DNA of 64,000 nucleotides, from contig SVFE01000004.1 in NCBI GenBank assembly GCA_015057055.1, positions 1 through 64,000 of the forward strand, written 5' to 3'. Below, piece by piece: positions 6,484 to 63,418 of this stretch (positions within the stretch are counted from its first letter, which is position 1; every line of letters begins with the position of its first letter). The DNA comes from Lachnospiraceae bacterium (GTDB lineage Bacteria; Bacillota; Clostridia; Lachnospirales; Lachnospiraceae). The notes under the pieces were generated by a model that did no database searches, was not told where the DNA came from, and was given only the letters and a program-made list of their open reading frames with translations. The position numbers and the translations under genes were made by a program.

Positions 6484-6582
6484 GAGGGGCTACAATAATT
6501 GCTTCCTTACGCCGGTATTACCCGGTTCAAGTGATGAGGGTTTATGGCACAGGCCACGTCTCAGCAAAAAGCACCCCTAGCG
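6484..6582 (-). ncRNA. TPP riboswitch (THI element)
   Basis: Reverse complement reads CTAGGGGTGC...CTGAGA...ACCCTCATCACTTGAACCGGGTAATACCGGCGTAAGGAAGCAA...AGCCCCTC, matching the THI consensus. Confidence 0.96.
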
Positions 6583-6715
6583 AATGTTTAATAAAAATAT
6601 TCTGTTACGCACTTATGATAAGTATTGGAATGGTTTTTGTCAATATCGTACTTTCGTTTTTTCGAATTTATTGGTATGATAGGAGACGGAAAGTAACCAG
6701 AAAATAAAAACAACT

Positions 6716-29234: not shown

Positions 29235-31601
29235 ATGCGTGAATTTGAAACAAAAGAAAACGCACAGTATGTGACAGGGTATTATATGATGCCGGATGGG
29301 CAAATGTTTCCTTGCATTATGTATCCGCAAGGTCCGATGCCTCAGGGAATGATGCCTCCGCAAGGGATGATGCCGCCGCAGGGGATGGTGCCACCGCAGG
29401 GGATGATGCCGCCGCAGGGGATGGTGCCGCCGCAGGGGATGGTACCGCCGCAGGGGATGATGCCGCCGCAAGGGACGGTGCCGCCGCAGGGGATGATGCC
29501 GCCGCAGGGGATGATGCCGCCGCAGGGGATGGTGCCGCCGCAAGGGATGATGCCGCCGCAGGGGATGATGCCGCCGCAGGGGATGATGCCGCCGCAAGGG
29601 ATGATGCCACCGCAAGGGATGATGCCGCCGCAAGGGATGATGCCGCCGCAAGGGACGGTGCCGCCGCAAGGGATGCAGCCGACCGACAGTAAGGCGACAG
29701 CGGCACCGAAACAGAAAAAGAATTTGGAAAGTGCCGTAGGAAAAAATCTTATGGGTATTTTAGCATCGGTATTGATTTTTGCGGGCTTAACGCTACTGGC
29801 AACGGCGGTGTACGATTCTTTTACCGACGTTATGCGTGTAATCGGATTGTTTTTGATTAGTGCAATTATGCTTACGGCAGGACGCCTTGGAATGCGAAAG
29901 GAGAAAAATGCATTTTTCTTATCCCTTACCGGCTGCGGTGTCGGTGCCGTATATATATCCTTGTTTTTAACTTACGGTTATTTTGGCCTGATTAATGAAA
30001 TTGTTTTGTATCTGCTTTTGGCAGTGTGGTCTGTCGTTGTGTATTTTATCGGCGGCAAAGGTTCGCAGCTGTTTAAAATTATCGGACAGCTTGGTATTTT
30101 GGTTTCACTGGTTTTCGGCAATGTACAGTTTTTGGACGGAAACGTTACGTCCGAAGACGTATTGCTGATTTATATGCTCATGATATTCTATATTGCGACG
30201 TCGGCATTCTATCTCTTTATTGAGTGGAAGAAAGGGGTTGCGGAGAATCTTCCGGCGTTGATTATCAATATTATCGGTACGTTTTTCCTGTATCATGCAG
30301 CGGGGAAATTGGTTAATTTTATCGATGTTTGGGCTGTTGTGCTTACGGGATATTTGATTGCTGCATATCTGCTTATGCAGGTTTGGGTCTATGTGAAGCA
30401 GGTGGAAAAGGTTTTTGATAAGGATAAAGATTCCCTTGGATGCTGGCTCTTTTCCAGCGCAGCATTGTTTGTTTCCTTTTTGGGTACATTGTTTCTTTTG
30501 CCGAAGGGAGAGGAGTGGGTTTACGGTGTTTGCTCCCTCGGATTTTTGCTTGTGTTCTGGCTCATTACGGAGCAGCGTCGCAAAGAAGATGCGGTGCGGA
30601 CCGCCCTTCTTTCGGAAGCTTTTTTCTATGGAGTGATTTGCTGTTTTACCTTGGATTTGGTCGCAGATATTTTTGGCGCGGCAATACTGGCACTTCCGCT
30701 GGCAGTTGCAGCGTATTTGAAAAAAGACGGTTTGTATCTGACATTGTCCATGGTGGCATTTTGCGTCTTTGCGGTATTCGGAGGAGAATACGAGGCGCCG
30801 TACGTCCTTTTTGTTGTAATTTTTGTTCTGTTATATTTCCTTATTATGCTGAATCGTTTGGAAATGTACAAACAACGCTACAAAATTCTTTTGTACGTGG
30901 GCGTGCTTTTCACACTGTTTTCGGCAACGGATAAGTTCGATCCGGTAGGTCTGACACACATGGAATTTCAGCATGTGATTTTGTATCTGGGCGCCCTTAT
31001 TTGTGCATTGGCAACCCTTACGGATTATTCCAAGTCCTGGGTGGAAAAGGGAAAAATTGAAAAGGAAATAAAATGGTTTCTGGCAGCAGTAACCGTGTAT
31101 TGGATGCTGGCATTAAGTGCGGTGATGTATCAGGATGCAGGACCGGTATGGCATGCATTGGCAGCGGCGTTTTTACTCTTTTTGGTTGTTATGAATATCC
31201 CGATTATGATTCGCTACTACAGGGAAAAAATGTGGTGTGCATTTTACATTGGAATTAAATTGACTCTTTATTTGGTTATCACGCTGGGTTCTTACGATGC
31301 GGCGGGATACGTGGTAAGTTTATGCTGCCTGATTATGGCAATTGCAACCATCGGTATCGGGTTTAAATTCAAGTACCGCTATATCCGATTGTACGGATTG
31401 ATATTATCGATTGTAAGCATTGTGAAACTGGTTCTTTTGGATGTGGAGTACAATTCTACCATGGCAAGAGCGGTAACGGTTACCGTGTGCGGGCTCATTG
31501 CCTTTGGCATCAGTTTTCTGTACAATGTGATTGATAAGAAAATTACAGCACCGGAAACGGAGACAGATTATGACGGACAGGGAAATACAGGAATTCATTG
31601 A
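29235..31601 (+). CDS. DUF2339-like multi-TM membrane protein with N-terminal GMMPPQ repeat
   Basis: About 20 predicted TM helices after a Pro/Gln/Met-rich repetitive N-terminus. Confidence 0.75.
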   Translation: MREFETKENAQYVTGYYMMPDGQMFPCIMYPQGPMPQGMMPPQGMMPPQGMVPPQGMMPPQGMVPPQGMVPPQGMMPPQGTVPPQGMMPPQGMMPPQGMVPPQGMMPPQGMMPPQGMMPPQGMMPPQGMMPPQGMMPPQGTVPPQGMQPTDSKATAAPKQKKNLESAVGKNLMGILASVLIFAGLTLLATAVYDSFTDVMRVIGLFLISAIMLTAGRLGMRKEKNAFFLSLTGCGVGAVYISLFLTYGYFGLINEIVLYLLLAVWSVVVYFIGGKGSQLFKIIGQLGILVSLVFGNVQFLDGNVTSEDVLLIYMLMIFYIATSAFYLFIEWKKGVAENLPALIINIIGTFFLYHAAGKLVNFIDVWAVVLTGYLIAAYLLMQVWVYVKQVEKVFDKDKDSLGCWLFSSAALFVSFLGTLFLLPKGEEWVYGVCSLGFLLVFWLITEQRRKEDAVRTALLSEAFFYGVICCFTLDLVADIFGAAILALPLAVAAYLKKDGLYLTLSMVAFCVFAVFGGEYEAPYVLFVVIFVLLYFLIMLNRLEMYKQRYKILLYVGVLFTLFSATDKFDPVGLTHMEFQHVILYLGALICALATLTDYSKSWVEKGKIEKEIKWFLAAVTVYWMLALSAVMYQDAGPVWHALAAAFLLFLVVMNIPIMIRYYREKMWCAFYIGIKLTLYLVITLGSYDAAGYVVSLCCLIMAIATIGIGFKFKYRYIRLYGLILSIVSIVKLVLLDVEYNSTMARAVTVTVCGLIAFGISFLYNVIDKKITAPETETDYDGQGNTGIH
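29346..29675 (+). repeat. In-frame 18-bp minisatellite, 18 units encoding G[MT][MV]PPQ
   Basis: Repeats of gggatgatgccgccgca counted directly from the translation. Confidence 0.95.
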
Positions 31602-61002: not shown

Positions 61003-62316
61003 ATGTGGGCATACGAAAGTGTATTTTATCAGATATATCCTTTGGGATTTTGCGGGGCACCCTTTGAGAACGACGGGGTCGCTGCGTCGCGAATTAAAAA
61101 AGTGTTGGATTGGATTCCCCACATGCAAAAACTGGGAATCAATGCCATTTATTTTTCCCCGGTATTTGAATCGGATACGCACGGATATAACACCAGAGAT
61201 TATACCAAAATTGACTGTCGCCTGGGAACGAATGAAGATTTTAAAGAGGTATGCGATGCGCTCCATAAGGCCGGTATCAAAGTGGTTTTGGACGGTGTAT
61301 TTAATCATGTGGGACGCGGCTTTTGGGCATTTCAGGATGTGCTGAAAAATCGGGAAAACTCGCCCTATGTCAGCTGGTTCCATCGCATTGATTTTGGCGG
61401 CAATTCCAATTACAATGACGGGCTTTGGTACGAAGGCTGGGAAGGCAATTATGACTTAGTAAAACTTAATCTTCACAATGAGGATGTGGTAAATCATATT
61501 TTCAGCGCAGTGGAAGGCTGGATTAAGGAATTTGACATTGACGGTATCCGCTTGGACGTAGCCTATTGTCTGGATTACGGCTTTTTGAACCGCCTCCGGG
61601 CTTTTTGTGATTCCAAGAAAGAGGATTTCTTTCTGTTAGGGGAGGTGCTTCATGGAGAATACGGGAAAATGCTTCGGGAGATGAACATTCATTCCGTGAC
61701 CAATTACCAGTGTTACAAGGGAATCCACTCGTCCTTTAACAGCGCCAATATGTTTGAAATCGTTCATTCGTTGCTTCGGATGTTTGGGCCGGAGGATTGG
61801 ACGATTTGCCGGGATGGTCATTTGCTCAGCTTTGCGGATAATCATGATGTGTCCCGTATTGCCAGTGTAATTCAAAACGAAAAATGTTTGCCTTTGGTGT
61901 ATGCCATGGTCTATGGTATGCCCGGCATCCCCTGCGTATATTACGGAAGTGAGTGGGGCGCAAAAGCGGATAAGAGCCAGGGAGACCCTGCCCTCAGAGC
62001 TTGCTTTGAGACACCGGAGTGGAATGAACTTACGGATTATATTGCAAAATTAAGTGAAATCAAGAAGAATTCCCACGCGTTAAATTATGGCGGCTTCCGC
62101 AGCGTGGTGCTTACCAATAAACAGTGTATTTTCGAGAGAAAGACAGAGCGGGAACGGGTGCTTGTGGCCATCAATATGGATGAAAACCCGTATCACGCCC
62201 ATTTTGATGCAGGCTGCGGTCAGGCAGAAGAACTCATCAGCGGAAAAATGCATGATTTTGGCGGCGGCAGCGAACTTCCGCCCTACAGTGCAAGTTTTTG
62301 GAAAATGGAACGTTAA
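61003..62316 (+). CDS. GH13 alpha-amylase family glycosidase
   Basis: VVLDGVFNHVGRGFWAFQDV, DGIRLDVAY, LLGEVLHGEY, FADNHDVSRI. Confidence 0.93.
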   Translation: MWAYESVFYQIYPLGFCGAPFENDGVAASRIKKVLDWIPHMQKLGINAIYFSPVFESDTHGYNTRDYTKIDCRLGTNEDFKEVCDALHKAGIKVVLDGVFNHVGRGFWAFQDVLKNRENSPYVSWFHRIDFGGNSNYNDGLWYEGWEGNYDLVKLNLHNEDVVNHIFSAVEGWIKEFDIDGIRLDVAYCLDYGFLNRLRAFCDSKKEDFFLLGEVLHGEYGKMLREMNIHSVTNYQCYKGIHSSFNSANMFEIVHSLLRMFGPEDWTICRDGHLLSFADNHDVSRIASVIQNEKCLPLVYAMVYGMPGIPCVYYGSEWGAKADKSQGDPALRACFETPEWNELTDYIAKLSEIKKNSHALNYGGFRSVVLTNKQCIFERKTERERVLVAINMDENPYHAHFDAGCGQAEELISGKMHDFGGGSELPPYSASFWKMER

Positions 62317-62389: not shown

Positions 62390-62455
62390 GTGCCTCGAGA
62401 GTGCCTCGCAAGTGCCCTGCAAGTGTCCTGCAAGTGACCCGCAAGTGCTTTGCAC
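62390..62455. repeat. 11-bp tandem repeat (6 units) preceding the 52-bp array
   Basis: gtgcctcgaga, gtgcctcgcaa, gtgccctgcaa, gtgtcctgcaa, gtgacccgcaa, gtgctttgca at 11-nt spacing from 62390. Confidence 0.85.
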
Positions 62456-62900
62456 CGCCTGAAAAGAGAAAAAGAAAAGTAGGCGGTGGCGGAAGAGTGC
62501 TTAGCACCGCCTAAAAAGAGAAAAAGAAAAGTAGGCGGTGGCGGAAGAGTGCTTAGCACCGCCTAAAAAGAGAAAAAGAAAAGTAGGCGGTGTTGGAAGA
62601 GTGCTTAGCACCGCCTAAAAAGAGAAAAAGAAAAGTAGGCGGTGTTGGAAGAGTGCTTAGCACCGCCTGAAAAGAGAAAAAGAAAAGTAGGCGGTGGCGA
62701 GGTTGTGCTTTGCACCGCCTGAAAAGAAAAAAAGAAAAGTAGGCGGTGGTGGAAGAGTGCTTAGCACCGCCTAAAAAGAAAAAAAGAAAAGTAGGCGGTG
62801 GCGGAAGAGTGGTTTGCACCGCCTGAAAAAAGAAAAAGAAAAGTAGGCGGTGTCGGAAGAGTGCTTTGCACCGCCTAAAAAGAAAAAAAGAAGATTGAGC
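62452..62900. repeat. 52-bp tandem repeat array, 9 units, each with CACCGCCT/AGGCGGTG inverted repeats
   Basis: gcaccgcct at 62452, 62504, 62556, 62608, 62660, 62712, 62764, 62816, 62868 (constant 52-nt spacing); last unit degenerate. Confidence 0.95.
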
Positions 62901-62956
62901 GGTGGAATGAGAAAAAGCGGGAAAATTGGCAGAAAAGTAGGCGGAGGTACGATTGT

Positions 62957-63418
62957 GTGAATATAGAATTGGTCAGGGCAACCATGGAGGATGCTTCCAT
63001 GCTATGGGAAATGCAAGTGAAATCCTTTCGGGATTTGTTCGATAAATATCAGGATTATGAAACCAATCCGGCGGCCGAGCCGGTGGAAAAGGTGATAAAT
63101 CGGTTAAAGCAAAAGGAAACTTTTTACTATTTTATCGTTGCGGATGATGTCAAAGTTGGGGCAATCCGGGTTGTCGTCCATCCGCTGGGCAAGAAAAAGA
63201 TCAGTCCGTTATTCGTATTGCCGGAGCACCAAAACAGAGGAATTGCCCAAAAGGCCATGAAGCGGTGCGAGGACATCCATGGCCATGACAATTGGGAATT
63301 AGATACGATTTTGCAGGAAGAGGGAAATCGATATTTGTATGAAAAAATGGGGTATCACAGAACCGGAAAGAGTGAAGTGGTAAACGATAAACTGACACTG
63401 ATTTTTTATGAAAAATAG
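62957..63418 (+). CDS. GNAT family N-acetyltransferase
   Basis: FVLPEHQNRGIAQKAMKRCEDI...NRYLYEKMGYHRTGK. Confidence 0.9.
   Translation: MNIELVRATMEDASMLWEMQVKSFRDLFDKYQDYETNPAAEPVEKVINRLKQKETFYYFIVADDVKVGAIRVVVHPLGKKKISPLFVLPEHQNRGIAQKAMKRCEDIHGHDNWELDTILQEEGNRYLYEKMGYHRTGKSEVVNDKLTLIFYEK

Follow-up and report, generated by a model that had tools for sequence, protein, structure and literature searches.

The window, the whole 64,000-nucleotide stretch of Lachnospiraceae DNA that was analysed (contig C39), carries an 11-bp tandem repeat that runs directly into an array of 52-bp units, both lying between a predicted amylase gene and a predicted acetyltransferase gene. The features of the locus are as follows.

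61003..62316, + strand: upstream flanking gene, GH13 alpha-amylase-like protein (PF00128)
62390..62454, + strand: 11-bp tandem repeat of the aagtgcctcgc type, about six units (TRF, direct reading)
62453..62904, + strand: 52-bp minisatellite, nine 36-nt hairpins of the form CACCGCCT-(A/G)20-AGGCGGTG and eight 16-nt linkers
62453..62488, + strand: hairpin 1, whose CACC is the exact start of the array
62869..62904, + strand: hairpin 9, terminal and degenerate, with the 3' arm TGAGCGGTG
62931..62947, + strand: degenerate 3' half-unit GAAAAGTAGGCGGAGG (weak search match, direct reading)
62957..63418, + strand: downstream flanking gene, GNAT acetyltransferase (PF00583)

TRF and direct reading of the sequence both confirm that the array is real. 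TRF reports a period of 52 with 8.6 copies at 62444-62892 (match 92%, score 735) and period-11 repeats at 62390-62416 and 62400-62448, which together make about six units. When units are cut at the 5' arm, nine hairpins are obtained from 62453 to 62904 and eight of eight successive spacings are exactly 52 bp, in agreement with the nine-unit anatomy and exact period described in an initial annotation of this DNA. That annotation was right to place an array here but ended it slightly early: it runs to 62904, its ninth unit is degenerate, and a half-unit follows at 62931-62947. This half-unit sits at the expected Shine-Dalgarno position of the GNAT gene and reads as a putative ribosome-binding site.

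A family of intergenic arrays

Copies of the unit are present at no fewer than five loci of the same genome. A covariance model of the hairpin recovers 71 units, all of them within five intergenic loci that are arranged as follows.

Locus 1 (window, C39): GH13 amylase, array of 9 units, GNAT
Locus 2 (C52): lysC, array of 23 units, MotA/ExbB-like gene
Locus 3 (C79): comEC-like gene, array of 18 units, unknown gene
Locus 4 (ends of C65 and C38): T-box leader, array of 4 units per side with one linker type, valS
Locus 5 (split C49/C65): membrane gene, array of 10 and 3-4 units, unknown gene

The modal period is 52 bp at all five loci, with a length of 51 or 53 bp in only 6 of 64 internal units, and the number of units per locus ranges from 9 to about 23. 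The assembly is a draft, probably from short reads, and contigs end inside arrays at two loci, so that copy numbers and joins had to be inferred: the split halves (C65/C38 and C49/C65) are taken to belong together from their shared unit type and gene order, and at C49/C65 the same unit variants occur at both contig ends. Every array starts at CACC and stops at GGTG, that is, on complete arms, and all units are head-to-tail. The flanking genes are co-directional at five of five loci, with the CACCGCCT-purine strand as the sense strand; the purine content of that strand in the arrays is 69-77%, and the common orientation may be a consequence of the purine bias that is usual in coding strands. 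Among the genes that flank the five loci, no common function was found. The C52 array has a terminator-like hairpin after lysC (direct reading) on one side and a putative promoter on the other, and the valS array lies between the T-box terminator and the coding sequence; no single transcriptional role fits both.

The final 11-mer of the window's 11-bp repeat (aagtgctttgc) matches the end of the 52-bp unit's linker. The initial annotation had divided each unit into an 11-mer and a 41-bp block, and had proposed that expansion was seeded by capture of the last 11-mer. Since the other four arrays keep the period with other linkers and with no 11-mer array beside them, the unit is better described as a 36-nt hairpin plus a 16-nt linker, and seeding of the period by the 11-mer is not supported. 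More likely, the 11-mers did not give rise to the period but are copies of the linker end of the window's own array (AGTGCTTTG). The same annotation had called the array non-coding on the grounds that 52 is not a multiple of three. The call was right but the logic is weak: on the minus strand of the C52 locus (L058, 3306-4678), all three antisense frames stay open through the 1.2-kb array (428-447 codons), and automatic annotation could call spurious repetitive proteins there. Isolated complete copies of the unit were not found in the genome, and the nearest approach to one is a weak half-unit before a gene start on C37 (L061, approximately 2191-2250), which reads GGCGGTG-N14-CACCGCCTAAAAA..AGGAAG, also given as GGCGGTG-N14-CACCGCCTAAAAATT..AAAAGGAAG. 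Speculatively, it may be a relic of the 52-bp unit, or its progenitor or ancestral arrangement.

Variation and folding of the unit

Within arrays, 2.8% of arm sites depart from the consensus, compared to 9.3% of loop sites and 13.0% of linker sites, so that variation in the arms is about 4.6 times lower than in the 16-nt linker (permutation p 0.0001). Between arrays, the consensus sequences are 95% identical in the arm, 68% in the loop and 40% in the linker, for which 34% is expected from composition. The linker and loop type is specific to each array and common to most of its units, with linker agreement of 83-100% within the main arrays and 75% in the three-unit C65 fragment; such locus-specific variants in most units are expected from local homogenisation. 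TRF also detects a 156-bp (three-unit) higher-order repeat in the C49 array. By these comparisons, the palindrome is held while the rest of the unit drifts at constant length. Copying of linkers from the local flanks was considered and rejected: the upstream flank resembles the linker at 12 of 16 positions at C79 and 9 of 16 at C39, and elsewhere not clearly (5 of 16). The 3' arm variant TGAGCGGTG is common to the last units of the window array, the C52 array and the array of a second genome described below; its presence at the ends of both C39 and C52 suggests copying of an array, or at least of a part of one, from one of these two loci to the other.

The arms CACCGCCTA and TAGGCGGTG can pair inside a unit, leaving an 18-nt A-rich loop, or between units, leaving a 16-nt loop. 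The computed stability of the sense RNA is similar for the two folds, which use the same arms (approximately -13 kcal/mol within a unit and -15 kcal/mol across units), and the alternative pairing proposed initially is upheld. The array region forms much more stable computed folds than dinucleotide shuffles do, on the plus strand (z -7.9) as well as on the minus strand (z -10.3). No covariation of arm pairs above that of shuffles was found on either strand, and arm changes that are compatible with G-U wobble pairing are equal by strand, with 8 events and 21 units for sense and antisense each, a count of independent events that is approximate because one change can spread inside an array. This balance points to a cause at the level of DNA or to the absence of a strand-specific RNA function, and does not separate selection from self-driven maintenance. 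On the minus strand, direct reading finds inter-unit stems followed by a T/C-rich tract, which the initial annotation had interpreted as a battery of antisense terminators. The stems have 16-nt loops, however, a terminator scan (loops of 3-8 nt) returned 0 sites at the three arrays scanned, and the arm events are 8 versus 8; what the terminator idea retains is structural plausibility.

Occurrence in relatives and comparison with known repeats

The hairpin model had no match at E <= 0.01 in 97 other species (34 in the genus, the rest in the family or order), and DNA searches within the genus returned only chance-level or low-complexity matches. A scan of contig sequences found one other carrier, a second MAG of the same species from roe deer rectum (RGIG4530), which is 97.6% identical to the genome studied here across 2.8 kb of flank, has unit variants with at least two differences to any unit of this genome, and has a contig that stops inside the array. 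The search of the genome and its relatives that was initially recommended thus yielded five loci and a second MAG of the same species but nothing in the 97 other species, and absence from relatives, which the initial annotation had treated as a sign of neutral satellite DNA, holds at the species level while the array persists in the second MAG. That MAG also contains a DUF3800-XI RNA (Rfam RF02975; L056, 1492-1539, minus strand). Plasmid and phage collections gave no match and one pattern scan of viral contigs gave nothing; a plasmid or phage origin was rejected for lack of matches in those collections. No relevant publication on tandem hairpin repeats in Lachnospiraceae came up in a literature search.

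No array separates the T-box terminator from valS in the sister species G023, where valS follows no more than about 60 nt downstream; G016 likewise lacks an array in its GH13-valS spacer of about 100 nt. The GH13 amylase gene is directly upstream of valS in many species of the genus (L067-L093); in the genome studied here and in G023, a T-box is found before valS instead. Both genes border an array here, but a rearrangement of GH13 and valS driven by the arrays was rejected, and the rearrangement is probably older than the arrays, because G023 has the T-box before valS and no array. G016 carries, near a contig start (L178, C20:50-158), a tandem pair of another, terminator-like unit 52-53 bp in length.

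Its units, tens of bp long and arrayed head-to-tail in several intergenic spacers, give the family the arrangement of a MIRU-like intergenic minisatellite. The MIRU/MIRU-VNTR of Mycobacterium tuberculosis are short tandem units at several, mostly intergenic loci that change rapidly in copy number, and MIRUs have been hypothesised to be transcribed within operons (PMC3635867). The arrays described here are likewise short tandem units at several intergenic loci, but the 52-bp unit is unrelated in sequence and occurs in a different phylum. A conserved GC-rich palindrome with an A-rich loop is not known to underlie MIRU units. BrickBuilt of Porphyromonas gingivalis is a species-restricted and strictly intergenic minisatellite/MITE with many loci, 23-nt units, leader and tail segments and IS5-type terminal inverted repeats (PMC4596501). 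The 52-bp arrays are similarly species-restricted, intergenic and multi-locus, but a comparison of their flanks for leader, tail and terminal inverted repeats of this type found no homology except one weak low-complexity similarity, and a MITE with shared ends was rejected for these unrelated flanks. REPs are usually present in more than 100 copies, BIMEs contain them in alternating orientation, and the GTAG families are linked to RAYTs (PMC2817692, PMC3733652). REPs resemble the 52-bp units as extragenic palindromes of 20-40 bp that are often clustered, but here there are 71 units at five loci, all head-to-tail. A GTAG tag precedes the 3' arm in C39, C38/C65 and part of C52, and is absent from C79 and C49. 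Y1_Tnp/RAYT (PF01797) has 0 matches in this genome versus 5 of 14 control genomes that score, and the lack of a Y1 transposase excludes a REP-RAYT origin. Triplex-motif (TM) loci of E. coli are secondary-structure motifs linked to raised local sequence variability (PMC4666352); the association of a structure-forming motif with local variability is common to both, but TM motifs are single GC-rich intrastrand triplex sites. Regular palindromic repeats at intervals of constant length recall CRISPR, which is excluded because the linkers are shared within an array and are not unique spacers; no recognisable cas genes are present among the flanking genes examined. An Rfam structured-RNA family is excluded, as no array matches any family above its gathering score. 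The 52-bp family is neither REP/RAYT, CRISPR nor an Rfam family. This gut bacterium carries a home-grown 52-bp family, found in no other species searched, that is most simply explained as self-expanding repeat DNA, and the arrays, on the same simplest explanation, also mark unstable spots between genes.

Origin and maintenance of the arrays

The family is probably a dispersed, species-specific intergenic minisatellite, similar to MIRU/VNTR, that maintains itself and is largely neutral, with arms that drive or survive expansion. The unit, a 36-nt GC-rich palindrome plus a 16-nt linker, would have arisen in this Lachnospiraceae species and then reached at least five intergenic spacers. There, each array would have been amplified and homogenised on its own, by slippage, template switching or unequal recombination at replication. 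The palindromic arms could fold on a single-stranded template and stall the fork, and re-pairing of the strands one or more units out of register would lead to the gain or loss of whole units. The arms would then most likely persist by promoting expansion, and the array would be near-neutral, any influence on the spacer, for example a ribosome-binding site supplied to the next gene, being incidental; we infer both fork stalling with slippage as the cause and near-neutrality. The higher-order repeat of C49 and the changed variants of the second MAG fit this model of self-maintenance. Conservation of the arms to this degree can equally be explained by selection for a function, however, and the period of exactly 52 bp at five loci despite nearly unrelated linkers counts against the model, as does the single orientation relative to neighbouring genes at all five.

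Those same properties are what would be expected if a host protein bound the inverted AGGCGGTG half-sites for nucleoid organisation, partition or local repression: a period of 52 bp, which is about five helical turns, would place successive sites on one face of the helix and is retained at five loci, the arms are conserved within and between arrays while the linkers drift, the arm changes lack strand preference as DNA-level recognition predicts, and the arrays start and finish on complete arms. Such a binding-site array is unlikely, given that no candidate protein has been identified, the unit is not conserved in sister species, the loci differ in size, with 9 to about 23 units each, and the flanking genes share no theme. 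It is quite unlikely that the family is a new DNA-level element in which helically phased palindromic sites for a putative host protein, limited to one species, have selected arms and drifting linkers and act as a local source of tandem duplication.

An element acting in RNA, whether as sense-strand spacer, insulator or stabiliser hairpins or as terminators against antisense transcription, would account for the folding of both strands far beyond shuffles, the co-directional genes on either side of five of five arrays, whose sense strand is always the same one, and the T/C-rich tracts that follow inter-unit stems on the minus strand. It is nevertheless improbable in view of the lack of covariation above shuffles, the 8 wobble-compatible events per strand, the lack of a terminator-like site at the three scanned arrays, and the position of the C52 array outside any obvious transcript, upstream of a putative promoter. 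Spread by a transposase as a non-autonomous mobile element (MITE- or REP-like), followed by tandem amplification, could explain why dispersed loci have a common, palindromic core and why TGAGCGGTG terminates the arrays of both C39 and C52; it is very unlikely, as the genome has no gene for a Y1/RAYT/IS200-type transposase, the flanks do not have a leader, tail or terminal inverted repeat in common, and the weak half-unit of C37 stands in place of isolated complete copies. As a young, species-limited minisatellite with fixed arms and a drifting remainder of constant length, the family makes selection and self-driven expansion testable against each other. Its arrays break MAG contigs and could serve for strain typing.

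Ten other tandem repeats, with periods of 11-48, lie within 1 kb of the arrays. A tandem repeat is present in 7 of 10 array flanks, compared with 6% of the 1-kb chunks in a sample of this genome (Fisher p 8e-7), and unrelated intergenic tandem repeats number 2.7 per kb near arrays versus 0.24 in the genome sample, an excess of approximately 11-fold (Poisson p 9e-7). The background density was taken from about 370 kb of this genome, in which genes were called by a simple ORF rule. In coding DNA near arrays, the excess is not significant (p 0.07). Two of the ten are in coding DNA (L060, C79, 3388-3517 and 1826-1883), where the comEC-like gene has a 30-bp repeat close to its 3' end and the next gene a 15-bp repeat, and one is the 11-bp array of the window, a sequence similar to the end of the local linker and only partly independent. 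The arrays may provoke duplications nearby, or may survive only in spacers that are prone to duplication, and these loci would suit the question of whether hairpin arrays cause duplication in neighbouring DNA. Elsewhere in the window, an 18-bp tandem repeat of 18.7 copies (GCCGCAGGGGATGATGCC) at 29339-29675 is probably an in-frame coding repeat, because 18 is a multiple of three, and a TPP riboswitch (Rfam RF00059) is present on the minus strand at 6487-6588.
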